From: a virus | IMG/VR virus record: IMGVR_UViG_3300017752_000231 | Location: 1-20,448 of that record | Reading direction: 5' to 3' (one strand) | DNA length: 20,448 nt | Shown: piece after piece, positions 2,136 through 19,471 of the stretch | Layout of the letters: every line of letters begins with the position of its first letter | Numbering within the stretch: position 1 is the first letter of the stretch | Translations under genes and position numbers: made by a program | The notes under the pieces: model-generated | What the model was told of the DNA's origin: nothing | Databases searched by the model: none | What the model saw: the letters and a program-made list of their open reading frames with translations, nothing else

Positions 2136-2149
2136 GATATAAATAGAAT

Positions 2150-4730: not shown

Positions 4731-4741
4731 GGAGTTATATA

Positions 4742-5629: not shown

Positions 5630-5638
5630 AAGGATATT

Positions 5639-6878: not shown

Positions 6879-7501
6879 TTTCCTATTACCATAAATCTGT
6901 TCATACCATTTGGCAACACTTTTGTACCTTTATACCAGACTCTAGTAATTTTAGCTTGATCAATTAACTCTTCTACATCTCTAACAGTATTAATATGATC
7001 TCTGTATTTTACTTCATCAGTTGATTGTAGTACGTATAAAGGAGTAGTGTTAGTTTGATTTTCAATTCTATCTCTTAACATATGAAAAGGAAACATATGT
7101 TCACATGATGTATTAACAACTAAATCTATCTTACCTTTCCTTACGTGATCTTTGTGTAGATCTTCCATATACAAATCAGAAAATTTAGAAGTGAATTTAT
7201 CTTCTATGTGTCTATTAAATCTTTTACTAATTTTTACAGCATCAGGATCAGTTTCGTAATTACACATAAAATCCGTATAAGAGCTTAACACATCTGCTAA
7301 CACATGACAATACCAACCACCAATAATAACTGTATTTGTAAAATGTAAATTAGTAGTTGATAGCTCATCACCAACCCATTTTTTACTTTGCAGCTGAGAT
7401 ATTTCAAATGAATGCTTTAATCTATCAACTAAAAATGGATGAGATTTAAGAGTTGTGTAGTAAGAACTCATCCAGTTTGAAACAGTATCTATATTTTCCA
7501 A
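6875..7501 (-). CDS. SAM-dependent methyltransferase-like protein
   Basis: This looks like a compact class I methyltransferase. TVIIGGWYCHVLADVLS (residues 57-73) occupies the place of the glycine-rich motif I loop, though it has only two adjacent glycines. The acidic NYETDPDAV (81-89) follows at the usual end of strand 2, where SAM ribose is bound, and KIDLVVNTSCEHM (124-136) is a strand-4 motif seen in small phage methyltransferases. The protein is 208 residues long. The gene overlaps both neighbours (4 and 13 bases) in the glycosyltransferase operon, so a role in methylating the same glycan or its precursor is inferred. The substrate class cannot be read from the sequence. Confidence 0.6.
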   Translation of the reverse strand: MENIDTVSNWMSSYYTTLKSHPFLVDRLKHSFEISQLQSKKWVGDELSTTNLHFTNTVIIGGWYCHVLADVLSSYTDFMCNYETDPDAVKISKRFNRHIEDKFTSKFSDLYMEDLHKDHVRKGKIDLVVNTSCEHMFPFHMLRDRIENQTNTTPLYVLQSTDEVKYRDHINTVRDVEELIDQAKITRVWYKGTKVLPNGMNRFMVIGK

Positions 7502-8202
7502 CGATCTCTTAACTCTCTTATATCAGTCATGTTCTCTAACTCGGTATTATCTATACCGTCATCATATTCAGAGTTATTAAACATACATATTATATGATCT
7601 TCTCTAAATGTTTTTGATTCCATATCATCAGGAAATACATTACCTTTATACCAGCTGTAGGCAACACCTTTTGGAAAGGTATTAAAAAACTCTTTACTGT
7701 ACCATTTATGAATGAGATAATTATCTAAACTAAAATATACAAATGATAAGTATTCCATGTTATTTGTAAATTGATCATAAACTGGTTTACACTGACCTCT
7801 ATTCCATCTTATAAGTGATGAATTATATTTTGTACCTTGGCCATTCTTACCAAAGTTCTTTCTAAAGTTATCTGGATTTTGCCAATAACCTTCAATAAGA
7901 TAAGGTTTATCCATAGGTAAATCCCATAACTTATCTATAGGGTTATGAATAAGAACATCTAAGTCAAAGAATAAAAATTCGTCTCCTTCAAGACCAATCT
8001 TATCTTCGTTAAACAATAATAATTTTTCTACTGTAAAGCAATCATGACCTGCATAGTCGTTAGGAAGAAGAATGTCATAATCGTTAATAGGTTGATCTGT
8101 AACACATACAAACTTGTCGCATTGATCTTTTACTGTGTCATATAACTTAGATTCATACCCATCATACTTATCGCCCCATTTTACACATACTATAGTTTTC
8201 AT
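7489..8202 (-). CDS. GT-A type glycosyltransferase (second copy, divergent)
   Basis: This is a putative glycosyltransferase of 237 residues. The N-terminal strand MKTIVCVKWGDKY begins a GT-A type nucleotide-binding fold. EFLFFDLDVLIHNPID (residues 75-90) carries the DxD motif D80-L-D82 in the same setting as the 6030-6878 gene, and KYNSSLIRWNRG (125-136) is the matching acceptor-side motif. Apart from these motifs the two enzymes differ, so they are not recent duplicates and may add different sugars. No membrane segment is present. The gene overlaps the downstream methyltransferase by 13 bases and the upstream PP-loop gene by 4 bases. Confidence 0.7.
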   Translation of the reverse strand: MKTIVCVKWGDKYDGYESKLYDTVKDQCDKFVCVTDQPINDYDILLPNDYAGHDCFTVEKLLLFNEDKIGLEGDEFLFFDLDVLIHNPIDKLWDLPMDKPYLIEGYWQNPDNFRKNFGKNGQGTKYNSSLIRWNRGQCKPVYDQFTNNMEYLSFVYFSLDNYLIHKWYSKEFFNTFPKGVAYSWYKGNVFPDDMESKTFREDHIICMFNNSEYDDGIDNTELENMTDIRELRDRWKI

Positions 8203-8906
8203 TTTTCACCATAATCATAACAACCAAAAGACCATTTCTTTTCTCTACACCACCAACACACTCTACATGCCTTAGAAAAATAATTTGAAAGATAATTCTT
8301 AGATATGCACGAAGCAGTTATTTCGAATAAATCCATTATACTGTTTTCTAGATAAATTTCTCTTAAAAATCTTTTATCTTTATCATGAAAAGGACACCAA
8401 TAATTATCAAGTACAGCTTTAACATGTGTATTGCCACTTTCTACATCTCTTACGGTTTCTCTATCTTTTAACAAGTTATGTTTTAGAGCTTCTTCATATG
8501 GAGGGTTGGCAGTTTTACCATGTAACAAAAATGTAAATTTGTTTTCATCTTTATTTTTCTGAGTAAATTTATTGTGCCAGTAAGATTTTTCTAGACCTGG
8601 ACCTTCAGAGTCTTTTGTAAAATGACCGGTAATAATATCTTTAATCTCAACATCAGGAAACATATCTCTCATATAAAGAACTATTTCTTTAGCGTTCCAT
8701 ATATTAGTAGGTCTTTCTGTGTCAATTAATGTCTGAGGCTGTACAATACAATCATGCTTTCTAATAGATATCTCTCTACATAACATCCAAAATAATAACG
8801 CTGAGTCTGTACCGCCAGACAAGTTTAGACCAATAGATTTGTGTTCGTGTATTGTAGGATGATCATCCCAGAAGTCAATTGCACCAAATTCATTACTATA
8901 AATCAT
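8199..8906 (-). CDS. PP-loop ATPase, QueC-like (possible 7-deazaguanine/amidotransfer enzyme)
   Basis: GLNLSGGTDSALLFW (residues 26-40) is a clear PP-loop (SGGxDS), which binds ATP for adenylation of a carboxylate or similar group. The C-terminus has C200 and then C214-x2-C217-x2-C220 (KACRVCWWC) followed by REKKWSFG. This matches the four-Cys zinc site of QueC, the 7-cyano-7-deazaguanine synthase, except that the first spacing is 13 residues rather than about 8. No QueD, QueE or FolE partner lies in the window, and its operon partners are glycosyltransferases and a methyltransferase. It may therefore act on a DNA or tRNA base precursor, or be a repurposed PP-loop enzyme. It is first in its operon, 32 bases from a late-promoter octamer. 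Confidence 0.65.
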   Translation of the reverse strand: MIYSNEFGAIDFWDDHPTIHEHKSIGLNLSGGTDSALLFWMLCREISIRKHDCIVQPQTLIDTERPTNIWNAKEIVLYMRDMFPDVEIKDIITGHFTKDSEGPGLEKSYWHNKFTQKNKDENKFTFLLHGKTANPPYEEALKHNLLKDRETVRDVESGNTHVKAVLDNYWCPFHDKDKRFLREIYLENSIMDLFEITASCISKNYLSNYFSKACRVCWWCREKKWSFGCYDYGEK

Positions 8907-8969: not shown

Positions 8970-9584
8970 ATGAGTTTTAATAGATTTTTAGAAAAAAGTA
9001 TAACAGCATCACAAAGATGTCAAAGAAACTGGGATTTAGATAAACAAGTACCAGAAGAAGATATCAAGACAATGAAGATATCTGTAACCGAATGTTCATC
9101 AAAACAAAATAGAGTTTTCTATAAAGCAATCTTTATTCAAGATAGAGAAAAGATAGAAGCTATTCATAATGCAACAGATGGTTTTGTTTATAATTTAGAA
9201 ACAGGTGCTTCTACAACTAATCCACAAACACTAGCTAATGTAGTTGTAGCGTTTGTTGAAGACAGAGATCCATCTGAGCCAACTAGGACTACTGAGGAAT
9301 ATAATAACGGAAGAATAAAAGGAGAACTTAAACAGGATGCAGATATTGCATTAGGTGTTGGCTCTGGTTACTTAACATTAACTGCTAATCTTTTAGGTTA
9401 TAAAACTGGATGCTGTCAATGTTTTGATAGAAAAATTGTAGGTGATATTCTTGGTAATGAAAAACCTTTATTGCTTATGGGTGTAGGTTTTCCGGGTAAA
9501 AATAGATCTAGATTAGAACATCACAAAAACCCAGACTTTAGATTTCCGTCTTTTAATAAAAATGTAATTGTTGAAGATATTTAA
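8970..9584 (+). CDS. Nitroreductase-like FMN-dependent oxidoreductase
   Basis: The 204-residue product has the nitroreductase fold pattern. TASQRCQRNWD (residues 12-22) corresponds to the N-terminal SxRxxR-type FMN-phosphate motif, and ECSSKQNRVFYKAIF (41-55) to the Pro/Ser-rich FMN loop. DADIALGVGSGYLTLTANLL (123-142), followed by GYKTGCCQCFD, is the central helix with the GxxTC-type segment, and LLLMGVGFPGKNRSR (167-181) is the closing FMN-binding strand and loop. Such enzymes usually act as dimers using NAD(P)H; the substrate is unknown. Related proteins occur in marine phages. It has a strong GGGAGG ribosome binding site, is probably driven by the CATAAATA late element, and overlaps the following gene by one base (TAATG). 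Confidence 0.75.
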   Translation: MSFNRFLEKSITASQRCQRNWDLDKQVPEEDIKTMKISVTECSSKQNRVFYKAIFIQDREKIEAIHNATDGFVYNLETGASTTNPQTLANVVVAFVEDRDPSEPTRTTEEYNNGRIKGELKQDADIALGVGSGYLTLTANLLGYKTGCCQCFDRKIVGDILGNEKPLLLMGVGFPGKNRSRLEHHKNPDFRFPSFNKNVIVEDI

Positions 9585-10201
9585 TGAAACCTTATGCGAT
9601 AGATATAAACGAAACTTCTATTCGTTTGTTAAAAAATTATTGGAATGAAAAACAAGATAATTTTATTCAAGATGCTAAAGATAATGGTTTAATGCATCTT
9701 GTATGTTTTGATAATCAATTGTTTAATAAAACTTTAGGTAAAGAATTTGACTATCAAAGATTTAATGCAGGTAATTTTTTCTCTCATGAACACCCATATT
9801 ATCCACATGTAGATATTTTTGATTATGAAAATACTGTTAATGTTGTTGTACCATTAATATGTGATGATCCAGATCAAAAATTAATAGTGTTTGATCAAAC
9901 TTATGAACATAAAGCAGCTACGTGGTGCGGATATATTTCCAAAAGAGAGTTTCATGGTAACCCTGCTATAAGAAAAAGAATGTGTGATACAATAGGTGTA
10001 GAGGGGTTGACAGATCAATCATGTCCTGATGAATTACTCGAACATTTACCTTACGGTTCTGATTTTTATTATGGGTTAACTGGTAGTGTGTTTGATTGGA
10101 AAGTAGGAACAGCTATAGTTTTTAATTCTTATAACATACACTGCACGGGACAAATGAAACCTGGTTACACAAAAGTTGGTTGTACTAGCTTTCTAAAATA
10201 A
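9584..10201 (+). CDS. Fe(II)/2-oxoglutarate oxygenase-like protein
   Basis: This is a probable non-haem iron dioxygenase of the cupin/jelly-roll type. PYYPHVDIFDYENTVNVVVP (residues 71-90) gives H75-V-D77 as the iron-binding HxD, followed by the characteristic strand. GTAIVFNSYNIHCTGQMKPG (175-194) carries the distal H186, and K197, 11 residues later, can take the place of the 2OG-binding Arg. It is the only member of the oxygenase set on the plus strand and is coupled to the nitroreductase by a TAATG overlap, suggesting the two act together. Its last 17 bases overlap the convergent SDR gene. Lys instead of Arg is found in part of the family; the substrate is unknown. Confidence 0.6.
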   Translation: MKPYAIDINETSIRLLKNYWNEKQDNFIQDAKDNGLMHLVCFDNQLFNKTLGKEFDYQRFNAGNFFSHEHPYYPHVDIFDYENTVNVVVPLICDDPDQKLIVFDQTYEHKAATWCGYISKREFHGNPAIRKRMCDTIGVEGLTDQSCPDELLEHLPYGSDFYYGLTGSVFDWKVGTAIVFNSYNIHCTGQMKPGYTKVGCTSFLK

Positions 10202-10637
10202 TAGAGACAGCTTCTTGAATAGATATTTTTTCTACTTCAGGAAGCTCTCTTAATACTCTTTCTGTAGCTACATAACCAAACCATTTGTATTCATAACCAT
10301 ATTTTTGACACGCTATTTTTAGAGCTAGTTTATGTTTTTGATAGTTAATTAAATGCTTATGAGTGTCAGGTAGTATAACTTCTGAAACTCTAGAACCTAT
10401 ATTAATAACTTTCATAGATGGGTTATGCTCAACAAAGTCTTTAAGCAAATGAGTTTGACTATAACCACTACATGCACTATTAATAAAAACATCTACATTT
10501 CTTGAATTGTTAATAATTCTTAATCTGTCTTCTTCTTTATCTATATCGTAACCATTAGATCGGCTAAAACCAATACAGTTGAATCTGTCAAAAATATATT
10601 TAGCTATACCAGCTGTATGACCTGTTATACCTATCAT
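10185..10637 (-). CDS. Short SDR-type NAD(P)-dependent oxidoreductase
   Basis: This is a compact short-chain dehydrogenase/reductase of 150 residues, against about 250 for classical members. It keeps the key motifs: IGITGHTAGIAKYIF (residues 2-16) with the TGxxxGI dinucleotide loop, VDVFINSACSG (48-58) in place of the NNAG strand, S82 in INIGSRVS, and the catalytic Y99-x3-K103 in INYQKHKLALK. It lacks the long C-terminal substrate-binding lobe, so its active site is either open or completed by a partner. It is the last gene of the 14-gene operon and overlaps the radical SAM gene by 4 bases. It could supply a keto/alcohol redox step on a product of the upstream oxygenases. Confidence 0.7.
   Translation of the reverse strand: MIGITGHTAGIAKYIFDRFNCIGFSRSNGYDIDKEEDRLRIINNSRNVDVFINSACSGYSQTHLLKDFVEHNPSMKVINIGSRVSEVILPDTHKHLINYQKHKLALKIACQKYGYEYKWFGYVATERVLRELPEVEKISIQEAVSIILES
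10205..10250 (+). terminator. Imperfect stem-loop after the plus-strand cassette
   Basis: AGCTTCTTGAA (10209-10219) pairs with TTCAGGAAGCT (10236-10246) over 11 positions including one G-U, and three further pairs lie beyond a C-C mismatch; the loop is 16 bases. It begins just after the stop codon at 10199-10201, where a terminator for the plus-strand pair would sit. No U-run follows, and the sequence is also the coding 3' end of the minus-strand SDR gene, so it may be fortuitous. Confidence 0.2.
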
Positions 10638-12028
10638 ACTACTCTATCATATTTCTTTAGCATTTTATACTTCTCTGGATTGGGGTGAGCTTGGACTAAA
10701 TTTTTACTAAACTCTATAAGTTCATACAATTCAAAGAATCTATCTTTTCTATCAATCCAATCTATTCCTAAAGAACTAACAAAATCAGTTTGTTTCTTAT
10801 TCCATTTGTATAATTCAGTCTGATGTATAATATGAGTATTACTCAATAGCTTCATAACATTTAAGTTAACTATAAATTTAGATTTGTGACCAAACCAGTC
10901 ATTTACGTTTTCTAAAAAGTTAACTGTATCTTCATGATCTTCATCTGTTTCAGTAGGGTAACCTACTATCATTAATAAAACAACATCTATATCTCTTTTA
11001 GATAGTTCTCCTAAAGTATAATACATGTCTTGGTTATTAAACTTTTTACCCATGTGATCTCTAACTGATTCTGAACCTGATTCAATTCCTATTTGTAAAT
11101 TAAAACAACCTGATCTTTTAATGTAGTCAAAATCTTCTTTTGACATAGCGTTACTACTTCTACATATAAACTGAGCTGCCCATGGCACGATTCTTATATC
11201 TGGATTGTTCTCATAATACTCAGTCATAAGTCTAGTCCATTTTCTAAACTCTTTCATATTACCGTTGATTAAACTATCAGAGAATAGTATATTATCAGGA
11301 TTATACTTATGTATAATGTCTATCATTTCCTCTGCAATCTTCTCTCCTTTCTTCCATCTAAATTTAGAAAAAAGATTTGGGACATTACAAAACGTACATT
11401 TTCTTACACACCCTCTTGATGCAGTAATAGTAAAATCTCTTTTTTTATTATCACCTCCAACAAACAAAGTGTAGTCAGGTATAGGTAGTTCATCTAAATT
11501 TTCTACTTCGTGTCTTTCAATACCATCAATGCTTTTATGTTCTTCTCCTAGTATTAAACTGTTAAGTGATCCCTCTCCCTCGCCTAATATAAAATGATCT
11601 ATAAGACTATCTTGTTTCCACTTTGGACCTATTTTTGGATTACAACCATATCCACCAGCTACTATTTTAGCATTTGATATACTACGAATGTGTTTACATA
11701 CTATAGGCACAATGTATTCTGAGTTAACACTAAACACACTTATACCAACCCAGTCTGTTTTTATTTCCGTGATGTAACTTTGTAAGTATTCAACAAACTC
11801 AGCTTCTATATCACTTTCAACATCACCAAAGGTTTCACCCCACGTAAGTGCTCTTTCATACCACTCAGCTCCTTTATCTTCGTATATGTCAATGTTCATA
11901 TCATAACATACGACTTCAATATTATCTTTTGTAAGAGTCGGAACTATATGACCTAATGCAGCACTAGGTGCTTTAACACCAGAACCTAAACCTCTAGGTG
12001 GTAAAGCAATTAATGTTATACTACTCAT
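10634..12028 (-). CDS. Cobalamin-binding-domain radical SAM enzyme
   Basis: This is a two-domain enzyme of 464 residues. The N-terminal ~170 residues look like the B12-binding Rossmann domain of class B radical SAM enzymes: a first strand ITLIALPPRGLGSG, then DWVGISVFSVNSEYIVPIV (92-110), AKIVAGGYGCNP (120-131) and DHFILGEGEGSL (144-155). The radical SAM core starts with ASRGCVRKCTFCNVPNLF (203-220), where C207-x3-C211-x2-C214 bind the [4Fe-4S] cluster, and continues with QIGIESGSESVRDHMGK and VGYPTETDEDHEDTV. This family carries out methylation of unactivated carbons and other radical rearrangements. The gene sits between the SDR and an Asp/Asn-hydroxylase-like gene with 4- and 8-base overlaps. 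The substrate is unknown. Confidence 0.85.
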   Translation of the reverse strand: MSSITLIALPPRGLGSGVKAPSAALGHIVPTLTKDNIEVVCYDMNIDIYEDKGAEWYERALTWGETFGDVESDIEAEFVEYLQSYITEIKTDWVGISVFSVNSEYIVPIVCKHIRSISNAKIVAGGYGCNPKIGPKWKQDSLIDHFILGEGEGSLNSLILGEEHKSIDGIERHEVENLDELPIPDYTLFVGGDNKKRDFTITASRGCVRKCTFCNVPNLFSKFRWKKGEKIAEEMIDIIHKYNPDNILFSDSLINGNMKEFRKWTRLMTEYYENNPDIRIVPWAAQFICRSSNAMSKEDFDYIKRSGCFNLQIGIESGSESVRDHMGKKFNNQDMYYTLGELSKRDIDVVLLMIVGYPTETDEDHEDTVNFLENVNDWFGHKSKFIVNLNVMKLLSNTHIIHQTELYKWNKKQTDFVSSLGIDWIDRKDRFFELYELIEFSKNLVQAHPNPEKYKMLKKYDRVV

Positions 12029-12509
12029 TAAAACAACCTACGATGTGTATTCTTTCTTCCCAGGATGCATTTACAGCTGTGTGTTTTTTTGTAGTATCAA
12101 CTATGTAATAACTACCATCAGCTGGATATCTGTTCAATATGTCATCAACTATAATAAAACAATTTTCGTTTGTAACTAATGGTATATGAATTCTTTTAGT
12201 AGGATCATTATGATAAGAATAACAAGATTTGCTTCTAAGATTCATAGCTCTTGTTCTATACATTTCAAGATCTTCTAATATACTTTTTGTGTACGGCATT
12301 TGATCTGGATATGCAAACTTGGTAAAGTCTTGTTCTTTTAACCCTTCTATTGGGTGCCATTGTTTCTTGTTTTCATTCCATGACATAAAGTCAGACCATT
12401 TATTATATTGTTCAGGAAACTGCAATAGTATTTGACCTCTATCTTTGTAAATATAAGTTAAAGGTTCAAGTTCAAAAAGTATTCTTTCAATGTCAATATA
12501 TTCCTTCAT
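12021..12509 (-). CDS. Aspartyl/asparaginyl beta-hydroxylase-like 2OG oxygenase
   Basis: This small 2OG oxygenase of 162 residues has the Asp/Asn-hydroxylase pattern. SYHNDPTKRIHIPLVTNENC (residues 98-117) provides H100-N-D102 and the following R-x-H strand. DGSYYIVDTTKKHTAVNASW (131-150) carries the distal H143, and EERIHIVGCF (151-160) supplies R153 for 2OG binding, ten residues after the His. The active site looks intact. The N-terminal ~85 residues are not recognised. It overlaps the radical SAM gene by 8 bases and the sulfotransferase gene by 17, so all three are probably expressed together. Despite the family name, it may act on a small molecule rather than a protein. Confidence 0.75.
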   Translation of the reverse strand: MKEYIDIERILFELEPLTYIYKDRGQILLQFPEQYNKWSDFMSWNENKKQWHPIEGLKEQDFTKFAYPDQMPYTKSILEDLEMYRTRAMNLRSKSCYSYHNDPTKRIHIPLVTNENCFIIVDDILNRYPADGSYYIVDTTKKHTAVNASWEERIHIVGCFNE

Positions 12510-13092
12510 CTCTCAACTCCTTCGCATACTGCTTAGCTATTTCTTTTACTGTATAAGGATCCTGAAAATCTTGTTCTAGTCTATTAATCCATTTATTAAC
12601 ATGGATATCAAAACCTGTAAATACATTGACATCTGTTTTTTTCTTCCACGGTAAGCATCTATAAGTTTCAAGTTTAGGTTTTAATCCAATCATAGCAGTA
12701 GTTAGTCTACCCATTTGTTCATAAGCTACACTATTAGATATAGGAAATTTTACTTCAAAATCCATTTGCCATACCGGTGAAGCATGAGAATCAACATTGC
12801 AGAGATAAACACAAAGATAGCTTATTAGATGTTCTTCTAAATTTTCTCTTAAAGTTGTAAAGTAAACTTCATCAGTTCTATCAATAATATGTTGAAGATG
12901 AGGTCCGTATAATTTAAACTCTCTATGAGTATGCATCTTCGCTACGCTTTTTTCAGATGCAAACCATTTATCTACACCATTATATTTTAGGTCTTGAACA
13001 AAGTTATTTTTATGTCCGTTTTTTTCCATAAGCAAATCGACAACAGATGTTGTTCCTGTTCTTGGATACCCTATTACTAAAAAGTGTGACAT
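12493..13092 (-). CDS. Sulfotransferase-like protein
   Basis: This is a putative PAPS-dependent sulfotransferase. FLVIGYPRTGTTSVVDLL (residues 4-21) is the 5'-phosphosulfate-binding loop (PRTGTT). SVAKMHTHREF (49-59) resembles the V-x-K-x-H strand carrying a catalytic Lys. EVYFTTLRENLEEHLISYLC (75-94) has R82 and S91 at the spacing of the 3'-phosphate-binding motif. At 199 residues it is shorter than most cytosolic or Stf-type enzymes (250-300). Phage sulfotransferases are uncommon but known; they would use host PAPS to sulfate a sugar, lipid or hydroxylated product. The many hydroxylases around it could create its acceptor hydroxyl group. It overlaps its neighbours by 17 and 16 bases. Confidence 0.75.
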   Translation of the reverse strand: MSHFLVIGYPRTGTTSVVDLLMEKNGHKNNFVQDLKYNGVDKWFASEKSVAKMHTHREFKLYGPHLQHIIDRTDEVYFTTLRENLEEHLISYLCVYLCNVDSHASPVWQMDFEVKFPISNSVAYEQMGRLTTAMIGLKPKLETYRCLPWKKKTDVNVFTGFDIHVNKWINRLEQDFQDPYTVKEIAKQYAKELRDEGIY

Positions 13093-13571
13093 AAACTACC
13101 CTCATAATAATTTTTAAGCACAGTTGTAAAATTTTCATCTATCATAAATTGTAACATTACTCTTTCATCTTCTTGAGTGTTATGTAAGTCATGTAACTTT
13201 CTTACATTAATTATATATGACCCTTTATTATAATCAGTAACACCTATTAAATTTTCACTATCATCATAGAAGTTTGTACCTACTGTAGCATTAATAGGAA
13301 TAGTAATAACAGTATTTCTATTATTTACATCTAAGTCTCTATGTCGATTGATCTTTATACCAGGTTTTTGATATACAAAACAGTATCTACTTTTTACTTT
13401 AAGTTTAGAAAGTAAATGATTTATATCTTCATTATCATCTATTTGCTTAAAGTTATTATTGCAATCGAAAACTTTATCTACTGTAGGAAGAGATTTGAAG
13501 TAATCAAATATTCTTATTTTTTGATCTTTAGTAATATCCATTTCTGGTATGCGCATAAAATAATCATACAT
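13077..13571 (-). CDS. 2OG-Fe(II) oxygenase-like protein
   Basis: This is a 164-residue cupin-fold oxygenase. The iron motif is H77-R-D79 in KINRHRDLDVNN, followed by the strand NTVITIPINATVGTNFYDD. SYIINVRKLHDLHNTQEDER (residues 118-137) gives distal candidates H127 and H130; R137, ten residues after H127, is the likely 2OG ligand, so H127 fits the usual spacing. The active site therefore appears complete. The protein consists of little more than the core fold with a short helical N-terminus. Two nearby Met codons (residues 1 and 6) could start it; the first gives an 8-base overlap with the preceding gene and fits the operon style. Confidence 0.7.
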   Translation of the reverse strand: MYDYFMRIPEMDITKDQKIRIFDYFKSLPTVDKVFDCNNNFKQIDDNEDINHLLSKLKVKSRYCFVYQKPGIKINRHRDLDVNNRNTVITIPINATVGTNFYDDSENLIGVTDYNKGSYIINVRKLHDLHNTQEDERVMLQFMIDENFTTVLKNYYEGSLCHTF

Positions 13572-14184
13572 TTAAATTTGTTTTACCTATGTAATCCTCA
13601 TAACGAAAACTGAATAAAGCTGCTCTTCTCATAATATTATAAGTTTGTACTTGATGTAACCATCCAGTATTAATAAAGTACATATGACCTGGTTTAGTTA
13701 AAAGAGTGTGTACTCTCTGTTTATCTTTAAACTGAAATATACTATCATTATCATTTAAGTTAATTATTGCTCTACACATTACAGATGTATCAGCATCTAT
13801 ATGCCATTTAAAAGTATGATTGGGTTTCATTTCACTTATTCTAAATCTGTAAATATTATTAAACATAGGTAACTGTATAGGGTCTATAATCCAATTATCA
13901 TAAGTAAATTCATCTACTGAATTAGAATCGCTTGTTGTTTGGAGTAATATTTGTCTATACTTATCTTGAACGTTGAACACTTCTTCATAATTACAATGTC
14001 CAGATATAGCGTACTTGTAACTACCAATATCATTTTCTTTATATTTGTCAGCTATAAAATTAAGATGTTTAATTATATCTTGATCGACCATTCCAAGATC
14101 AACAAACGTTTGAAGTTTAGATCTTGATGGACCTGTTCCTTTTACTCTTCTTCTTTTTGTTTTTTCAATTAAACATTCAGTCAT
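13564..14184 (-). CDS. 2OG-Fe(II) oxygenase-like protein
   Basis: This is a 206-residue member of the oxygenase array. The metal motif is H128-I-D130 in NHTFKWHIDADTSVMCRAII, the distal His is H177 in MYFINTGWLHQVQ, and R186/R187 (9-10 residues later) are the 2OG-binding candidates in MRRAALFSF. This resembles the aspartyl/proline-hydroxylase-like proteins common in marine T4-like phages. A basic N-terminus (KTKRRRVKGTGPSRSK, residues 8-23) is unusual in the set and might bind nucleic acid or an anionic polymer. The start codon overlaps the stop of the upstream gene (ATGA, 4 bases), and the end overlaps the next gene by 8 bases. Confidence 0.7.
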   Translation of the reverse strand: MTECLIEKTKRRRVKGTGPSRSKLQTFVDLGMVDQDIIKHLNFIADKYKENDIGSYKYAISGHCNYEEVFNVQDKYRQILLQTTSDSNSVDEFTYDNWIIDPIQLPMFNNIYRFRISEMKPNHTFKWHIDADTSVMCRAIINLNDNDSIFQFKDKQRVHTLLTKPGHMYFINTGWLHQVQTYNIMRRAALFSFRYEDYIGKTNLNV

Positions 14185-14807
14185 AACTCACCTGTCTTTC
14201 TTAATTGTCTCCAAGGCATTTCGAAATTAAAAGGAGTTACCACTTTATCAGACATGTAACTATCTTTTAACATTTGCATTGGTACTATTTGTAAATGAGT
14301 TTTCAATATAAGTCTTTCTTGATCACAATCGTTGTTTACACCATGGGGTTGGTAAGTGTTCAAAAAGCAAGGATTAGTATACTCTCTTCTTTCTAGTAAA
14401 TTAAGATCTTCGTCATACATATCTAACTTAGTTGTACCTCTAAGCGGTATATTAAATGCAGAAAAAGTTCTAAGAGCATGAGCTGTATGAGGTTTTAATG
14501 TACCATAAGGTGGCATCCAGATAAAGGTAAACTTAGTAACGTGTCTTATAGCATCCCAGTCTAAGTTTACATTACATCTTTCACCTAATCTTTTTACTAC
14601 TTCAAAAATTTTACTCCATAGCTCTATATTACAATCATAACAAACATGGTAAATTTTCTGCTCATCATGACCTATACCTATAGTAGAATGGTCCTCAAAA
14701 TGTGGCTGAATTTTATACTTAAAGATTCTATCTAAGATCTTTCTCATTTGCTTATCGTCATGCTTTAACTCAGCAAATCTGTCTTGATACTCATATTCAA
14801 ATTTCAT
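14181..14807 (-). CDS. 2OG-oxygenase fold protein with HTA in place of HxD (halogenase-like site)
   Basis: The fold pattern is that of the neighbouring oxygenases: PPYGTLKPHTAHALRTFSAF (residues 99-118) leading into NIPLRGTTKLDMYDED, then PCFLNTYQPHGVNNDCDQER (146-165) with distal H155 and 2OG-type R165 exactly ten residues later. The proximal motif is H107-T-A109, so the iron-binding carboxylate is missing. In the adjacent gene (14804-15394) the matching segment is KPHID, with the Asp present. Fe/2OG halogenases such as SyrB2 have precisely this Asp-to-Ala change, which opens a site for chloride. An inactive or altered oxygenase is the alternative. The gene overlaps both neighbours by 4 bases. 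Confidence 0.6.
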   Translation of the reverse strand: MKFEYEYQDRFAELKHDDKQMRKILDRIFKYKIQPHFEDHSTIGIGHDEQKIYHVCYDCNIELWSKIFEVVKRLGERCNVNLDWDAIRHVTKFTFIWMPPYGTLKPHTAHALRTFSAFNIPLRGTTKLDMYDEDLNLLERREYTNPCFLNTYQPHGVNNDCDQERLILKTHLQIVPMQMLKDSYMSDKVVTPFNFEMPWRQLRKTGEL

Positions 14808-15394
14808 AACAAATCCTTTATTTTATTCAAAACATTCTCGTAAGTCTCTTCGAATGTTATTTGTAGAAAAATTCTCCAATGTTTACTTGTATTATTAGCT
14901 CCATGGATATATTTTGTATTAAGTAAAACTGTATCACCTTCATCATAGTATGTTTGATCTATAATTTTTGTTTTATCTTCTTCAAACCATCTTTCAGAAA
15001 CTTTTTCTACATTTTCGTACCAATCAGTAGGTACCGGGCAAGGTAACATTATAGGAAAGTTTAGTAAACAAACTCTCATATGTTTTTCTTCATTCTCTTT
15101 ATCAATATGAGGTTTAAGATTGTCACCTGGTTTATGAATAACAAAAATAGTTTTAGTATTTATATTACCCACCACATCTTTAATTTTACGTTCATACTTA
15201 CTTACAACTGAGTTTTTATCTTTAAGCCAGTAAAAAATAGGATTAGCTTGATTAGGAATAGTATAAACATTATCAAATGTCATTTTATTTTCTTTTAGAA
15301 AAAGTCTTTTAAGAAGTAATCTTTCTTCTCCTAATAAATTTAACCCGCGAACAGAAGTCCATCTAGGGTTGAAATTTTCTGTTCCATTCTTCAT
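14804..15394 (-). CDS. 2OG-Fe(II) oxygenase-like protein
   Basis: This is a 196-residue cupin-fold oxygenase with a complete site: H96-I-D98 in PGDNLKPHIDKENEEKHMR (residues 89-107), distal H164 in LLNTKYIHGANNTS, and R174 ten residues on in KHWRIFLQITFEE. The layout (H-x-D, strand ending NFPI, GDTVLLNT before the distal His) resembles that of the HTA protein encoded next to it, so the two may be ancient paralogues. The start gives a 32-base overlap with the upstream gene, long for this operon, but the next in-frame Met is residue 38. A perfect late octamer on the coding strand lies inside this gene at 15157-15164. Confidence 0.7.
   Translation of the reverse strand: MKNGTENFNPRWTSVRGLNLLGEERLLLKRLFLKENKMTFDNVYTIPNQANPIFYWLKDKNSVVSKYERKIKDVVGNINTKTIFVIHKPGDNLKPHIDKENEEKHMRVCLLNFPIMLPCPVPTDWYENVEKVSERWFEEDKTKIIDQTYYDEGDTVLLNTKYIHGANNTSKHWRIFLQITFEETYENVLNKIKDLL
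15157..15164 (-). promoter_or_regulatory. Internal TATAAATA octamer (candidate late promoter)
   Basis: A perfect T4-type late promoter octamer is oriented with the operon. It is about 350 bases upstream of the start of the HTA oxygenase-like gene and could give extra late transcription of the distal half of the operon. In AT-rich coding DNA (it encodes part of Asn-Ile-Asn-Thr) chance occurrence is likely. A relaxed match, AATAAATA, lies similarly at 18052-18059. Confidence 0.2.
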
Positions 15395-15908
15395 AACTTA
15401 TACTTTCTAATTCTGGTTTATTACCAGTGTAAGTAATATGCTGCCAGCATTGTGCACAATCATGTTCACAAGTCTTAAACATACCACTAGGTACTAACCA
15501 TTCTCTATTTGTTAACAAATTATATTTTTCTGCTGTCTTTTGTATTAACTTTTTTCTTTTCATATATTCGAGACTAACAAACCCTTGATTATAATCTTCT
15601 AACTGCGAGTTAAGTAATTGTACTGCAGGGGTGACTCTATCTAGTTTTCTCCCTGGGTAAATATTATACCATCCAAAATCAAAATATCTTGTAAGTAGTC
15701 TCTGTGTAGAACCAAAATTTTGTACAGTAGCAAAAGCTACATCAGGAATAATATACCACTTACTATATTTTTCATTATTAAAAGGGTCAGTAATGAGAGT
15801 ATCAAACCAGGTAATATTTCTATGACCTTTATCAGCTGTTTGTTTATAAGCCTTATACAATTGTTCTTTAATGATATGTATTTGAGATCTATCTAGCTTT
15901 AACATCAA
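15363..15908 (-). CDS. Unknown protein with C-terminal CX3CX2C motif
   Basis: I do not recognise this 181-residue protein. It is probably mostly alpha/beta, rich in aromatic residues (Tyr, Trp, Phe), with no membrane segment. Near the C-terminus, FKTCEHDCAQCWQHI (residues 144-158) has C147-x3-C151-x2-C154 with His149 and His157, a likely Fe-S or zinc site. The spacing equals the radical SAM cluster motif, but the protein is too short and the motif too late for a radical SAM barrel. No HxD...H oxygenase pattern is visible. It lies between oxygenase genes, with 32- and 20-base overlaps, and so is expressed with them. Start Met1 or Met2 cannot be distinguished. Confidence 0.5.
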   Translation of the reverse strand: MMLKLDRSQIHIIKEQLYKAYKQTADKGHRNITWFDTLITDPFNNEKYSKWYIIPDVAFATVQNFGSTQRLLTRYFDFGWYNIYPGRKLDRVTPAVQLLNSQLEDYNQGFVSLEYMKRKKLIQKTAEKYNLLTNREWLVPSGMFKTCEHDCAQCWQHITYTGNKPELESISYEEWNRKFQP

Positions 15909-16416
15909 ACGCTACAGTCATTCTTTCTTCGTTAGTTAACATAACAACATCATGAACAAGATAAGGAGGAAACAAAATTAACTCTTTTGGTTTACCTTTA
16001 TGTTCAATTACACCTTTTCTTATATTCCAATACCCAAACTGATCATGCCATTCTGCCATAGGATCAAAAAATCTTGTAACTCCGTTTTCTGGCTTAATGT
16101 ATAATATACCTGACATAACAACATTTCTTCTAAGATGATTATGTTTACCACACGTACAAATACCAGGGTAAAAATTACCCCACATATCTATACTTAATTC
16201 ACCATCGACACCTAATTCATCTAAAAAAGGTTTTGTATATTCTAGCAGCTCATTTGATATCTCAGCAAAGTCAAAATTTACTTTATAATAATAGTCTCCA
16301 CGAGATTCTATTCCTATTCTTTTAGAGCTGTAAAGATTGTTTCTTAATTGTCTTTCTAAACTTTTAATATCAAAGTTAGTGTTAATGGTTTTTACTGGAG
16401 TTGTAAACATGCTCAT
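15889..16416 (-). CDS. 2OG-Fe(II) oxygenase-like protein (HxH-type motif)
   Basis: This is a 175-residue protein of the 2OG oxygenase type frequent in marine T4-like phages, which carries H-x-H followed by a SG-x-x-Y strand. Here KHNHLRRNVVMSGILYIKPE (residues 91-110) gives H92-N-H94 and MSGILYI; GVTRFFDPMAEW follows, then LILFPPYLVHDVVMLTNEER (146-165) with distal H155 and R165 ten residues later. I chose the ATG at 16414-16416, with a GGA upstream. An in-frame ATG at 16459-16461 would add 15 residues (MLLKVIGLCIELHWI) that look unlike the family and lie deep inside the preceding gene. With the chosen start the overlap is 35 bases. Confidence 0.7.
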   Translation of the reverse strand: MSMFTTPVKTINTNFDIKSLERQLRNNLYSSKRIGIESRGDYYYKVNFDFAEISNELLEYTKPFLDELGVDGELSIDMWGNFYPGICTCGKHNHLRRNVVMSGILYIKPENGVTRFFDPMAEWHDQFGYWNIRKGVIEHKGKPKELILFPPYLVHDVVMLTNEERMTVAFDVKAR

Positions 16417-17212
16417 AATCCAATGTAGTTCTATACATAAACCTATCACCTTCAACAGCATTACGTTTATGTATACTATGAAACTGATCCATAAAGATCA
16501 AATCTCCTGGTTGCCAATCGTTATGATGATATATGTACTTGTCTTGAAATACGTGATCGAATAAAAATTCTTTTAAAAATTTTTGCCTTTCTTCTTGCAC
16601 TTTGTACATTTTTTGTATATAATGAAAGGTAAAGTATAATCCTTTCATACCATCAAACGGATGAGTATATACTAAAGGTTTAACTGTACCTCTAGCATAT
16701 TCACCTCTATTCTCAAACATAACTAATTCTTTATCATCTTCATCTAAGTCATAGAATGTATTGTTTTCAAATTTCATAAGACATTTAATCTTACTTAATT
16801 CTAATTTTAAATCATCACTAAGATCATTGTATGCAGCTCTTGTATCACAAAAACTAGTAATACTATTCTTTCCAGGTTTAACACAATACAGACCTACACA
16901 ACACTCTACACCACTTGGTCTTCCGTTACCGTTACTATGCCAGTCTAGTTCTTTGTCTGCGAAAATGCCAATCTTTTCATCATCTTTTCTTTCGTTAGTG
17001 ACTCTCATAAGTTCTGGATATTCGTCATCAGCAAAAAATTCATCGGTCTTTAATGTATTACCAATAGAGTTATAAACTCTTGATAAATCTTCTTTACTTA
17101 AATGTTGATTTCTTAATACAACTATATTATCATTAGGTAATACTTTAGCCCATTTCCTAATGTCTTCATTACTCATATCCTTGAGTTTTATATCATGAAA
17201 TTTAGCTACCAT
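16382..17212 (-). CDS. TauD/TfdA-like dioxygenase with HSN in place of HxD
   Basis: This is the largest oxygenase of the island (276 residues), with TauD/TfdA architecture. It has an N-terminal LPNDNIVVLRNQHLSKEDLS (residues 25-44), then KELDWHSNGNGRPSG (87-101) at the HxD position, VKPGKNSITSFCDTRAAYND (111-130) matching the family's GGxTxFxdxxxAYdxL segment, THPFDGMKGLYF (183-194), and the distal region DQFHSIHKRNAVEGDRFMYR (242-261) with H248 (or H245) and R257/R261. The proximal motif reads H92-S-N94, so Asn replaces the usual Asp or Glu. The rest of the site is intact. Known relatives hydroxylate sulfonates, carnitine precursors or aryloxy acids; the substrate here is unknown. Two bases separate it from the preceding gene, the only non-overlapping junction of the operon. 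Confidence 0.75.
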   Translation of the reverse strand: MVAKFHDIKLKDMSNEDIRKWAKVLPNDNIVVLRNQHLSKEDLSRVYNSIGNTLKTDEFFADDEYPELMRVTNERKDDEKIGIFADKELDWHSNGNGRPSGVECCVGLYCVKPGKNSITSFCDTRAAYNDLSDDLKLELSKIKCLMKFENNTFYDLDEDDKELVMFENRGEYARGTVKPLVYTHPFDGMKGLYFTFHYIQKMYKVQEERQKFLKEFLFDHVFQDKYIYHHNDWQPGDLIFMDQFHSIHKRNAVEGDRFMYRTTLDYEHVYNSSKNH

Positions 17213-17214
17213 GA

Positions 17215-17868
17215 TTACTCCATAAAATCTATAATAAGATGAACACCACCATCAGTGGTGCTTTTGTTGTGTGCGTAATGAAGTGTTGAAGCGTCTAATG
17301 TCCATATAGTGCCAGCATCCATTCTATGTTCAACTAAACCATTACCTTCATAATCATCAACATCACAAAGATAATTGTCTTCATTTGACTTTACAATAAC
17401 ATGATATCTGATACCGTTTGTAAATTTAGGACTTGCTCTATCAGTATGTATTACTAACTTAAAATCTTTACTCTTACATGCTAGTGTACATGTTACTTTA
17501 TTATACCCTACATAACCTTCTTTGTCAACTATTAATTGAATTATTTCTTCTATAGATTTAGAAAGATCTTCTTTAATTTTAGATACTAATATAGCATGTG
17601 GGTTTCCGTTAGGAATATCATTATACGAATCCCACATATCGTTAGAATATTTTTTATTGAGGTGATACCCTTTTGCGGGTAAATCTTTGACCTTTACTCT
17701 ATGCTCTTGACCAAGTGGTAAAGGAATGTTAATTTTAAAATGTGAATCTATACCATCTGGTTTATAACAATTGTCTGCATAATAGTTTGCAAAAAAGAGT
17801 GGCTTTTCTAAATCTTTTACTAGACGTTGATATAAGTCCTTTTCTAAATCAATATACTTTGCAATCAT
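17215..17868 (-). CDS. Asp/Asn beta-hydroxylase-like protein lacking the 2OG-binding Arg
   Basis: The 217-residue product shares the pattern of the 12021-12509 gene. FKLVIHTDRASPKFTNGIRY (residues 136-155) has H141-T-D143 and the following RYH strand (R154, H156), and AGTIWTLDASTLHYAHNKST (185-204) has distal H197 (or H200). In the final strand GGVHLIIDFME the position taken by Arg in relatives (R-x-H-L/I) is Gly208, so the usual 2OG C5-carboxylate anchor is missing. It could bind another co-substrate, use a different basic residue, or be inactive. The N-terminal ~130 residues are family-unspecific. It overlaps the upstream gene by 20 bases. Confidence 0.65.
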   Translation of the reverse strand: MIAKYIDLEKDLYQRLVKDLEKPLFFANYYADNCYKPDGIDSHFKINIPLPLGQEHRVKVKDLPAKGYHLNKKYSNDMWDSYNDIPNGNPHAILVSKIKEDLSKSIEEIIQLIVDKEGYVGYNKVTCTLACKSKDFKLVIHTDRASPKFTNGIRYHVIVKSNEDNYLCDVDDYEGNGLVEHRMDAGTIWTLDASTLHYAHNKSTTDGGVHLIIDFME

Positions 17869-18511
17869 AATCTATTAACCTATCATAAATTTCTTCATAT
17901 GTCTCACTTAAACTGATTAGTTTTAACGTAACTCTTTCACTAGATATTTTATCTACTTTATGAAAATGCTGATTGTTAAGTAATGCAGTTTTATATACAT
18001 ATTTTTTATCCGGCCAAAATGTAACCGGGTCTTCGCTTTCACCTATATGAATATTTATTGATGCTCTAACTAGTTCTCCGTCTTTATGCCATGTAAGAAA
18101 ATCATTTTGTTTCAAAATAAGACACCTAACTAGATATCTTTTAATACCAAGCTTTTTAGCTAATGTATCCATCTGAGACATAATATATTCAACTGTGTTA
18201 TTATTTCTGTATTTTTCAAACCATATGTTATGAAAATCTGGAGAAACTAAATTACCTTCTGCTGACTTAAACACTGTTCTTATTCTTACACCTTTATCAT
18301 CTACATAAAAAAAAGTAATATCTTCACCATCATCGTATTTGTAATACCCATGATAGTCTTGTTTAGTTGGTACTCTATCTATTGATATATGTTCTAATTT
18401 ATCTGGTGCAATATAATCTTCTGGTTTTAAACTTTTTCTAAAATTTAAAACAGCGGTTTTTAAACCTTGTTTATTAATTACCCAATCAAAATTTAATAAA
18501 GGTTCTACCAT
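17849..18511 (-). CDS. 2OG-Fe(II) oxygenase-like protein
   Basis: This is a 220-residue oxygenase with H142-K-D144 in DFLTWHKDGELVRASINIHI (residues 137-156), a strand-turn ending VTFWPDKKYVYKT, distal candidates H182/H184 in LLNNQHFHKVDKIS, and R193 in SERVTLKLISL, 9-11 residues later. The order and spacing fit the aspartyl-hydroxylase-like or generic cupin group, and the site appears complete. The N-terminal ~120 residues are less typical; they include a beta-rich region with several DD/DG turns. It overlaps the desaturase gene by 7 bases and the next oxygenase by 20. It is the second gene of the operon. Confidence 0.7.
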   Translation of the reverse strand: MVEPLLNFDWVINKQGLKTAVLNFRKSLKPEDYIAPDKLEHISIDRVPTKQDYHGYYKYDDGEDITFFYVDDKGVRIRTVFKSAEGNLVSPDFHNIWFEKYRNNNTVEYIMSQMDTLAKKLGIKRYLVRCLILKQNDFLTWHKDGELVRASINIHIGESEDPVTFWPDKKYVYKTALLNNQHFHKVDKISSERVTLKLISLSETYEEIYDRLIDYDCKVY

Positions 18512-19020
18512 GAGTGGTGATCTTTATGGTTGCCTTCAAACGGAGCAAGTATGTTAATCCACCATCTGTTAACTGCTTTATTGTTATGATGACCAAAATA
18601 ATTTAAAATACCCATACCAGCGTAAGCCATTAATATAAAGTATGGAGTAAAGATAATAAAAAACCAAACAAGATATCTTCCATACTTCTGAAAAAATTTT
18701 ATTCTAGGATTAGATACAACGTCTCTAATAACAGATAAAGGAATGATAGTATCAGAAAAATCAGAAATTAATACTTTTAGACCTTTATGTTTAGGGCTAT
18801 GAGGGTCAAGTTTAGTATCAGCATGTTTATGATGTAGTCTATGTACACCAATCCAGCCTAGAGGTTTATAAACACCTAATGATAATGCGCATGATAGTGT
18901 TAGCCATTCAAACCATACTCTTCTTTTACCTTGTCTATGAGCCCAGTACCTATGTAAACCGTATGTAGCTCCTATAGAAGAGAGTGCTATATAAAGAAAG
19001 TAAAGATAAAGTATAGACAT
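18505..19020 (-). CDS. Compact fatty-acid desaturase (delta-9 acyl desaturase-like)
   Basis: This is an integral membrane di-iron desaturase with all three histidine boxes: H23RYWAH28, H60RLHHKH66 followed by DTKLDPHSP, and N164HKDHH169. It also has H144/H145 in NYFGHHNN, where desaturases carry a further His ligand. Hydrophobic segments lie at about residues 3-18, 38-56 and 115-139. Family members usually have about 250-320 residues; this one has 171 and stops two residues after the third box, so the C-terminal cytosolic tail is missing, yet no ligand is lost. It should introduce a double bond into an acyl chain using an electron donor from the host. It is the first gene of the 14-gene operon, with GGAG placed rather far (12 bases) from the ATG. 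Confidence 0.85.
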   Translation of the reverse strand: MSILYLYFLYIALSSIGATYGLHRYWAHRQGKRRVWFEWLTLSCALSLGVYKPLGWIGVHRLHHKHADTKLDPHSPKHKGLKVLISDFSDTIIPLSVIRDVVSNPRIKFFQKYGRYLVWFFIIFTPYFILMAYAGMGILNYFGHHNNKAVNRWWINILAPFEGNHKDHHSW

Positions 19021-19108: not shown

Positions 19109-19471
19109 ATGAGTGAGAAAGACGTTTCTCAAGAAATTTCTGCGATTGAAGACGATGTTAAAAAGATTCTTCGTAACAGAAAAGACGATTATACTTATTC
19201 GCGAGAGTTATTATACTCATCTGCGGAGAGATTACAGGATGTTCTAGATGCAGCAGTGCAGCTGGCTCAAGAATCAGAACACCCTAGAGCTATAGAAGTA
19301 GCTACAGGAACAGCAACTGCTTTAAGTGACATAGCAGAAAAAATGATGGAGCATCAGTTGCGTACTGAAAAACTTAATAATCCTAAAAATGATACAAAAC
19401 AAACTACAAACAATAATTTAAATGTCAAATTAAATACTAAGGATTTATTAGAGTTACTAGGTAAAGAATGA
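19109..19471 (+). CDS. gp16: Terminase small subunit gp16
   Basis: This is the homologue of T4 gp16, which forms a ring on DNA and stimulates the gp17 packaging motor. The 120-residue protein is almost entirely helical with a coiled-coil-like middle: an N-terminal acidic helix (MSEKDVSQEISAIEDDVKKI), RELLYSSAERLQDVLDAAVQ (residues 28-47), then the family hallmark EHPRAIEVATGTATAL (52-67) and a Lys/Asn-rich linker before a short C-terminal helix (NTKDLLELLGKE) that probably contacts gp17. T4 gp16 is longer (164 residues). It has the AGGAG ribosome binding site 8 bases before the ATG and overlaps gp17 by 4 bases (ATGA). Confidence 0.85.
   Translation: MSEKDVSQEISAIEDDVKKILRNRKDDYTYSRELLYSSAERLQDVLDAAVQLAQESEHPRAIEVATGTATALSDIAEKMMEHQLRTEKLNNPKNDTKQTTNNNLNVKLNTKDLLELLGKE

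Follow-up and report, generated by a model that had tools for sequence, protein, structure and literature searches.

The 20,448-nucleotide stretch of DNA analyzed here in full (positions 1 to 20,448 of IMG/VR virus record IMGVR_UViG_3300017752_000231; referred to as the window) is a fragment of a T4-like marine phage, as judged by its structural and terminase genes. It carries an operon of 14 minus-strand open reading frames (ORFs), running from position 19020 down to position 10185, that encodes nine iron- and 2-oxoglutarate (Fe/2OG)-dependent oxygenase-like proteins together with five other enzyme-like proteins. The operon represents a genuine gene team that is conserved among phages and in a few bacteria, and the genomic slot in which it is located is of a known type. 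We think it rather likely that it is a mobile, phage-borne biosynthetic cluster whose co-inherited enzymes successively oxidize and decorate one scaffold. Its 13 junctions consist of 12 overlaps and one 2-base gap (17213 to 17214): from position 19020 onward, they measure 7, 20, gap, 35, 17 to 20, 32, 4, 4, 8, 16, 17, 8, and 4 bases, as an earlier reading made from the sequence alone (the sequence-only reading) had described. The 35-base overlap assumes that gene 15889 starts at its second Met codon (16416); with the longest ORF (16461), the overlap would be 80 bases. Genes were called as our own ORFs of at least 80 amino acids, and shorter genes were therefore missed.

The genes, all on the minus strand and designated by their lower coordinates, are as follows. 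The first (18505 to 19020) encodes a short, membrane fatty-acid-desaturase-like protein of 171 amino acids (PF00487, E = 4.4e-5; DesA, 6.8e-8; both below the cutoff). Two PF05118-like 2OG oxygenases follow, one with an HKD..H..R motif (17849 to 18511; iterated profile and ligand alignment) and one with HTD..H and a replaced Arg (17215 to 17868; PF05118, 1.2e-3, below the Pfam cutoff). Next are a TauD-like protein (16382 to 17212; PF02668, 1.8e-29) with a conserved HxN (WHSN) in place of HxD, a 2OG-FeII_Oxy_5-type protein (15889 to 16416; PF13759, 3.5e-7; phrog_81, 2.5e-16) that is of the H-x-H type by eye, and a GNAT-fold acyltransferase (15363 to 15905). Four further oxygenase-like genes encode a PF05118-like protein with HID..H..R (14804 to 15394; PF05118, 5.6e-4, below the Pfam cutoff), a 2OG-fold enzyme with HxA (PHTA) in place of HxD (14181 to 14807; conserved as HxA/HxN), a JmjC/PF05118-like protein with HID..H..R and the basic N terminus RRRVKGTGP (13564 to 14184; JmjC, 0.013), and a protein with HRD..H..R (13077 to 13571; iterated profile and ligand alignment). 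The operon ends with a putative sulfotransferase (12493 to 13092; P-loop-like start GYPRTGTT by eye; PF13469, only 0.12), an Asp/Asn-hydroxylase-family oxygenase with HND..H..R (12021 to 12509; PF05118, 4.4e-11; LpxO, 2.4e-4, far below the cutoff), a B12-binding radical S-adenosylmethionine (SAM) enzyme (10634 to 12028), and a short protein resembling short-chain dehydrogenases/reductases (SDRs; 10185 to 10637; TGHTAGI and YQKHK by eye, no Pfam match). The desaturase and the B12-type radical SAM enzyme named in the sequence-only reading are thus retained, its sulfotransferase and SDR stand on motifs, and its Cys-motif protein is the GNAT-fold protein, in which that motif is not conserved.

A second marine contig, IMGVR_UViG_3300020403_000040 (L001), carries all 14 genes in identical order at 70 to 97% identity. 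The ratio of nonsynonymous to synonymous substitution rates (dN/dS) between the window and L001 copies, calculated with our own Nei-Gojobori script, was 0.03 to 0.26 over all 14 genes and was lowest for 14181 (0.028), 13564 (0.050), the radical SAM gene (0.056), and the TauD-like gene (0.063). Searches with the TauD-like and 14181 proteins yielded 48 contigs, counting the window, that encode a TauD relative of at least 52% identity; these formed 27 groups at 90% TauD identity, with one locus kept per contig. GNAT genes were present in 21 of these groups, desaturase genes in 17, both in 16, and at least one additional superfamily oxygenase in 23. In 59 of 61 cases, the desaturase or GNAT gene closest to the TauD-like gene lay on its strand; the median distance was 1.9 kb, and all 10 contigs found through 14181 also carried a TauD-like gene. 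One gene order, desaturase-GNAT-13564-TauD-14181-oxygenase-TauD-radical SAM, recurred in seven loci (L117 to L120 and L126 to L128). The core (desaturase, GNAT, 13564, TauD-like HxN, and, in a subset, 14181) therefore recurs together, mostly on one strand. The genes outside it are exchangeable accessories: the radical SAM family was found in 15 of the 48 contigs, the SDR in 14, the 15889 family in 5, and the sulfotransferase in 2 (the window and L001), and neither 13077 nor 14804 had a close orthologue beyond L001. In a second TauD subfamily (33 loci, 34 to 37% identity), another oxygenase was present in 33 loci, a desaturase in 21, and the window's GNAT family in 4; Pelagibacter phage Mosig is the isolate with this type of TauD. 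Homologues thus keep conserved partners, both in the 27 groups and in the distant loci, and are not scattered singly. The sequence-only reading had proposed a dedicated pathway as opposed to unrelated cargo; a dedicated set is upheld, as is the full gene order in L001, but elsewhere conservation is confined to a core of some five genes and the rest varies. As a far control, we examined terminase-anchored loci from other T4-like phages: in all 54, the desaturase, GNAT, TauD, and radical SAM profiles were without a match, and a single superfamily oxygenase was present in three.

Related clusters were also found in bacterial genomes, contrary to the idea of a purely viral pathway. Scanning 84,980 species genomes with the TauD alignment gave four matches (L178 to L181). 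L178 (also L186; genome G041), a contig of a Bacteriovoracaceae metagenome-assembled genome with ordinary chromosomal neighbors by eye, has a cluster in which two TauD-like HxN genes and two desaturase genes are accompanied by several small oxygenases, a GNAT, and a radical SAM enzyme. L179, an 8.6-kb contig binned as Paceibacter and phage-like by eye, encodes a desaturase 61% identical to that of the window, a TauD-like HxN protein, and superfamily oxygenases; a desaturase-like ORF (by eye) adjoins the TauD-like gene in L180, and L181 has only radical SAM-like genes. Strong TauD matches occurred in 2 of 129 genomes of the L178 family (E of 1e-20) and in 4 of 368 genomes of its phylum (E of 1e-30). 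Two of these clusters are located on long contigs, one of 349 kb with an EF-Tu-like neighbor (G117, Bacteriovoracaceae; L187/L188) and one of 505 kb with trpS and ribonucleotide reductase neighbors by eye (G244, same phylum as G041; L192). In both, a 13564-type oxygenase, a GNAT, and a desaturase stand side by side in this order, the reverse of the phage order, with TauD-like genes nearby; the G041 cluster is looser. The fourth of the phylum matches, G277, is a 7.5-kb contig; it carries two TauD-like genes, and none of the remaining profiled partners was found on it. The sole genome-wide GNAT-family match of G041 and of G117 sits inside the cluster, and no GNAT-family match was found genome-wide in G043 or G044. 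A small protein (150 to 161 amino acids in phages) is common to phages, G117, and G244. Another small protein, of 96 to 110 amino acids and shared (by eye) by two bacterial clusters, stands beside the 13564-type oxygenase (L187, 19406 to 19738; L192, 2321 to 2611).

The nine oxygenase-like products, counted as such in the sequence-only reading from HxD..H..R motifs or variants, are supported by Pfam, iterated profiles, and one AlphaFold2 model. No Pfam oxygenase match was obtained for 17849, 14181, or 13077; iterated profiles connect these three with 12021, 13564, 14804, and 17215. The full HxD..H..R pattern is present in 17849, 14804, 13564, 13077, and 12021, and 17215 lacks the Arg. In an alignment of 122 distinct superfamily oxygenases from the clusters (the seven connected window members and their relatives, with 15889 and TauD excluded), both iron His residues were retained in 120, so that no general decay of the active sites is seen; the third ligand was Asp in 106 of these 120, and the 14 without Asp were exactly the 14181 family. 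In a tree of the 122 proteins, five of the seven window members were closer to proteins from several other contigs than to any paralogue in the window, and beyond L001, 13077 and 14804 were each other's nearest relatives. Recent tandem duplication was rejected as the origin of the oxygenases on the basis of this tree, which supports many distinct lineages, not recent copies, in line with the divergent subfamilies that had been noticed from the sequence. Relatives of 13564 with similar N termini occur in phages and bacteria. The oxygenases might instead act on the 2OG pool, as a draw-down or nitrogen-stress signal without a product, which an excerpted text (PMC3037559) proposes for cyanophage oxygenases; we find this hardly credible here, because such an effect would not select distinct orthologous lineages, specific ligand changes, and non-oxygenase partners.

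Two of the families lack the carboxylate ligand of the iron site. The 14 distinct proteins of the 14181 family have Ala (10) or Asn (4, with L117 and L126 among the sources) at the third-ligand position. TauD-like family members have WHSN, WHAN, WHCN, or WHVN motifs, with WHTN in G244 and WHSA in G277 (where a neighboring gene has WHRD), and retain the distal His and Arg; in relatives of known structure, the corresponding motif is WHSD (5bke, TfdA type) or WHAD (ScoE). Among 127 TauD ORFs, 120 had WHxN and 7 had WHHD, counting the first WHxx per ORF and including repeats of one contig. The contig search kept 80 of 198 TauD relatives, and the HxN count partly reflects how that search was built, because one of its two patterns contained WHSN, as did one pattern of the species genome scan. 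Searches free of this bias (six loci; Pelagibacter phage Mosig EXVC030M [MT647606.1, 47490 to 66272] by tblastn; G117, G244, and G277 by profile) also gave HxN, plus one WHSA. The clusters carry other TauD-like proteins with HxD as well (L006, L007, and L003). Since dN/dS is low, the HxN and HxA sites are no product of decay, and sequence comparison indicates strong purifying selection on them.

In Fe/2OG halogenases (HxA/G), the carboxylate ligand is lost and chloride takes its place. The AlphaFold2 model of 14181 (predicted local distance difference test [pLDDT] score, 86.4) has the 2OG double-stranded beta-helix and matches AspH, prolyl 4-hydroxylase, AlkB, and BesD, besides other cupins; a PDB sequence search with 14181 gave no match at an E value of 1 or better. 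Structural alignment gave Z scores of 13.0 for AlkB, 11.1 for BesD, and 10.8 for HalA, with prolyl hydroxylases within about 2 Z units, and because AlkB, BesD, and HalA fall within this range, the fold selects no chemistry. According to excerpts of the respective papers, human AspH is a hydroxylase with a two-His iron site (HxG) and no carboxylate (PMC10947486), changing the Asp of a prolyl hydroxylase to Ala or Gly gave neither activity (PMC2767507), and the halogenases reported from cyanophages are flavin enzymes (PMC10452541). We therefore do not name 14181 a halogenase, given the AspH hydroxylase and the prolyl hydroxylase variants. It is conceivable, though unlikely, that the TauD-like HxN (rarely HxA) and 14181 HxA/HxN proteins represent two unrecognized carboxylate-less Fe/2OG classes that install a halogen or other anion on an acyl-linked scaffold in a natural-product-like marine phage pathway, with the related Bdellovibrio-like bacterial clusters making a related compound. 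The alignment of the 14181 model to AlkB and ALKBH5 (Z of about 12 to 13) would also suit nucleotide or DNA hypermodification, that is, TET/AlkB-like oxidation followed by base decoration, as would the resemblance by eye of the nearby gene 8199 to N-type ATP pyrophosphatases. We consider such hypermodification very improbable: the fold is unspecific, as the Z scores of AlkB, BesD, and the prolyl hydroxylases differ by no more than about 2 units, no base-modifying partner was recognized, and a sister phage (L034, described below) lacks this cargo in the slot itself.

Among the non-oxygenase partners, the desaturase has three His boxes (HRYWAH, HRLHH, and HKDHH), and PF00487, below the cutoff for the window protein, exceeded it in 12 of the 22 records searched. 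Structure prediction for 15363 (AlphaFold2 pLDDT, 91.5) revealed a GNAT fold: all 50 matches listed by Foldseek were GNAT-type acyltransferases (template modeling scores of about 0.3 to 0.5; best E value, 1.7e-3), and alignment to 1ghe gave a Z score of 9.8 and a root mean square deviation of 3.9 over 136 residues. Sequence matches of this family were weak (7 of 27 members to PF00583, best 0.039; three PDB matches only, E values of 0.54 to 0.77), and INPHARED (50,697 records) contained no match at an E value of 1e-3 for 14181 or the GNAT. We conclude that 15363 is a GNAT-fold acyltransferase, with acyl transfer as its predicted activity. A precursor peptide and an Fe-S protein were rejected as identities for 15363, whose cysteines are not conserved and whose fold is GNAT. 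The radical SAM protein contains CVRKCTFC (PF04055, 2.5e-21) and a B12 domain just under the cutoff (PF02310, 2e-7); its best three profile matches, to PhpK (1.3e-29), a ladderane-type lipid radical SAM enzyme (1.6e-23), and a C-methyltransferase of ribosomally synthesized and posttranslationally modified peptides (1.7e-22), were all below the cutoff. Matches to DesA (18505), LpxO (12021), and this ladderane-type enzyme (10634), all far below the cutoff, may hint at a lipid.

Recurrence of the core genes across many ocean viruses, and in a small number of bacterial genomes, makes it probable that the cluster produces one heavily modified molecule. We infer the following reactions, product, and role. 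The membrane desaturase would oxidize an acyl chain, the GNAT would couple an amine with an acyl group, the oxygenases would hydroxylate the product at several positions, and the B12 radical SAM enzyme would add carbon. The sulfotransferase and neighboring glycosyltransferases would decorate the product and, like the SDR, would be accessories to this tailoring line. The two carboxylate-less enzymes could hydroxylate with a two-His iron site, as AspH does, or could instead transfer a halide or another anion, and the product might change the host cell envelope during infection. By analogy with ornithine-lipid synthesis, our best guess for the product class is an acyl-linked, aminolipid-like compound, a guess that we hold only tentatively.

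The operon occupies a site flanked by conserved phage genes. PHROGs annotations identified head-closure, tail-sheath-stabilizer (gp15, at 1269), and fiber genes on the left and, on the right, the plus-strand genes for the terminase small subunit (gp16; 19109 to 19471) and large subunit (gp17; 19468 to the end of the window at 20448), with about 13 kb of cargo between the fiber genes and gp16. The sister phage IMGVR_UViG_3300021964_000306 (L034), whose gp16 and gp17 are 86 to 91% identical to those of the window and whose neck, gp15, fiber, gp16, and gp17 genes span 62 to 91% identity, has a nearly empty slot, where a fiber gene is followed by ORFs of 308 and 90 amino acids and then gp16. In L009 (gp17 92% identical), two overlapping AMP-ligase-like (adenylation-like) ORFs lie beside gp16 (132 to 2200, by eye). 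Because L034 is near-empty there and L009 holds AMP-ligase-like ORFs, the position between fiber genes and gp16 is a hypervariable cargo slot. The variable block, from gp15 (1269) to gp16/gp17 (19109), agrees with the hyperplastic region of cyanomyoviruses, which we take to lie between g15 and g18, and the T4-like hypervariable location named in the sequence-only reading is supported. Terminase kin in isolates, among the best 20 of 3,126 records, were cyanophages and Methylophilales phages (54 to 60% identity); psbA (PF00124), looked for as a sign of a cyanophage host, was not found in 26 related records, most of which are fragments. The cluster of L003 is not at the fiber-gp16 slot, because a Rieske-type oxygenase-like ORF (2109 to 3182) and a thyX-like ORF (1 to 594), both seen by eye, stand upstream of it.

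Proximity to fiber genes raises the alternative of a phage protein as the substrate, most likely the neighboring tail fiber, which the enzymes would modify by hydroxylation, acylation, and glycosyl or sulfo groups, with the fiber set changing together with the island. The island is near tail-fiber genes in the window, in Mosig, and in 10 loci where one fiber-like gene family (by eye) lies within 8 kb; moreover, PF05118 and JmjC relatives act on proteins, and the 14181 model matches AspH. A membrane desaturase and the aminotransferase and FMN reductase of the Mosig type are unfit for protein modification, however, and no phage fiber was recognized in the bacterial stretches when inspected by eye without a fiber-profile search, so that we regard fiber modification as rather improbable.

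Several observations weigh against a joint pathway. In 4 of the 27 groups, the TauD-like gene had none of the partners counted above in the stretch covered. The accessory genes differ between contigs in the manner expected of loose cargo (of the 48 contigs, 2 have the sulfotransferase and 15 the radical SAM gene), the radical SAM and 14181 families were found in none of the 33 distant TauD loci, and the bacterial stretches yielded no match to 14181. The far control spanned at most 10 kb on either side of the terminase gene at a threshold of 1e-5, compared with 1e-3 for the 48 contigs. In a nearer control (L009 to L034; 26 loci with terminases at least 74% identical), counted after the duplicate loci L002 and L004 had been dropped, a desaturase was present in 13 loci, a GNAT in 2, and a TauD-like gene in 2, and 10 of the 13 desaturase-bearing loci had neither GNAT nor TauD in the stretch covered; the desaturase therefore also travels alone, and this count slightly lowered our confidence in a biosynthetic cluster. 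On the chemical side, no Foldseek match of the GNAT reached an E value of 0.001 or better, the lipid hints are at the superfamily level only, and nine oxygenases would be a large number for a single lipid.

These desaturase counts, the differing accessories, and the contents of the slot in L034 and L009 would suit a hypervariable slot that gathers unrelated metabolic genes without any joint pathway, as would the presence of 2OG oxygenases in 14 of 16 cyanophage genomes given in the excerpt of PMC3037559. We judge such a gathering of loose genes improbable, because partners, strand, and spacing are conserved around TauD, the profiled partners were found in none of the 54 far control loci, the trio is also present in bacterial genomes, and the specific ligand changes are conserved. 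A co-inherited biosynthetic cluster is the reading that we prefer.

Further cargo lies to the left of the operon. Convergent with it, on the plus strand, are a tenth oxygenase-like protein with HVD..H (9584 to 10201; by eye, no Pfam oxygenase match), whose L001 counterpart is 86% identical, and a possible nitroreductase-like protein (8970 to 9584; by eye, resembling Mosig_00082, no Pfam match). On the minus strand, positions 6030 to 8906 encode, by eye, glycosyltransferase-like (6030 and 7489), methyltransferase-like (6875), and ATP-pyrophosphatase-like (8199) proteins; relatives of some of these ORFs occur in L008, L028, L117, and others. The ATP-pyrophosphatase-like protein (8199 to 8906) has SGGTDS and a C-terminal Cys cluster and is QueC-like by eye; its profile matched 4 of the 48 contigs, window included. 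Near some clusters, a carbamoyltransferase gene (Carbam_trans_C, 1.7e-67; L118, 1968 to 3482) and SPASM radical SAM genes were observed. The tripeptide DSD is frequent in structural proteins, with 21 occurrences in 1,935 residues of six left-flank ORFs (window positions 217 to 6064), compared with 1 in 4,375 residues of the cargo proteins of the window; in L034 (11888 to 20883), a single 1,081-residue protein contains 36. Operon-driven Asp hydroxylation of these motifs was considered and rejected, as DSD is also frequent in L034, which has no operon at the slot.

Phage oxygenases are usually seen as single auxiliary metabolic genes. The conserved multienzyme team described here, part of which also exists in a few bacterial genomes, speaks for entire tailoring pathways being carried by ocean phages, and the HxN and HxA sites offer natural enzymes for testing carboxylate-less 2OG chemistry, that is, hydroxylation versus halogenation.

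No description of this cluster was found among the titles and abstract beginnings listed by searches of open-license literature on such phage clusters, on HxN enzymes or a phage Fe/2OG halogenase, and on Mosig, and the operon resembles several known systems in part. The window slot is like the hyperplastic region of cyanomyoviruses in position and variable content; host-like genes were reportedly described there in the work of Millard in 2009. The ornithine-lipid pathway, which we take to include the GNAT OlsB, the PF05118-like OlsC, and OlsE of the desaturase superfamily, shares three enzyme superfamilies side by side with the operon, at the superfamily level only, whereas the operon has far more oxygenases. 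Like the Fe/2OG halogenases SyrB2, BesD, and HalA, 14181 has the 2OG fold and has lost the carboxylate ligand (HxA), but part of its family is HxN, and its Z score to AlkB is higher than those to BesD and HalA. Human AspH (PF05118), as described in the excerpted source, shares with 14181 the 2OG fold and a carboxylate-less two-His site, but 14181 has HxA/HxN instead of HxG, and identity was 10 to 13% in the structural alignments listed. The bacterial clusters of G041, G117, and G244 combine, as the window does, a TauD-like HxN protein, a desaturase, a GNAT, and a 13564-type oxygenase; they differ in lacking 14181, in their other partners, and, in G117 and G244, in the reversed trio. The Mosig island, whose record annotates its genes singly, encodes in order Asp_Arg_Hydrox, FA_desaturase, an aminotransferase, an FMN reductase, a peroxiredoxin, TauD, a methylase, an N-acetyltransferase, and Asp_Arg_Hydrox, among other genes, with a hypothetical gene directly before TauD and the N-acetyltransferase two genes downstream of it. 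Relative to the window, it adds the annotated aminotransferase, FMN reductase, peroxiredoxin, and methylase, has no 14181 match, and has a GNAT without a match to the window GNAT profile; it shares a TauD-like WHSN protein (36% identical), together with Asp_Arg_Hydrox, FA_desaturase, and N-acetyltransferase genes, and, like the window island, it adjoins tail fibers.

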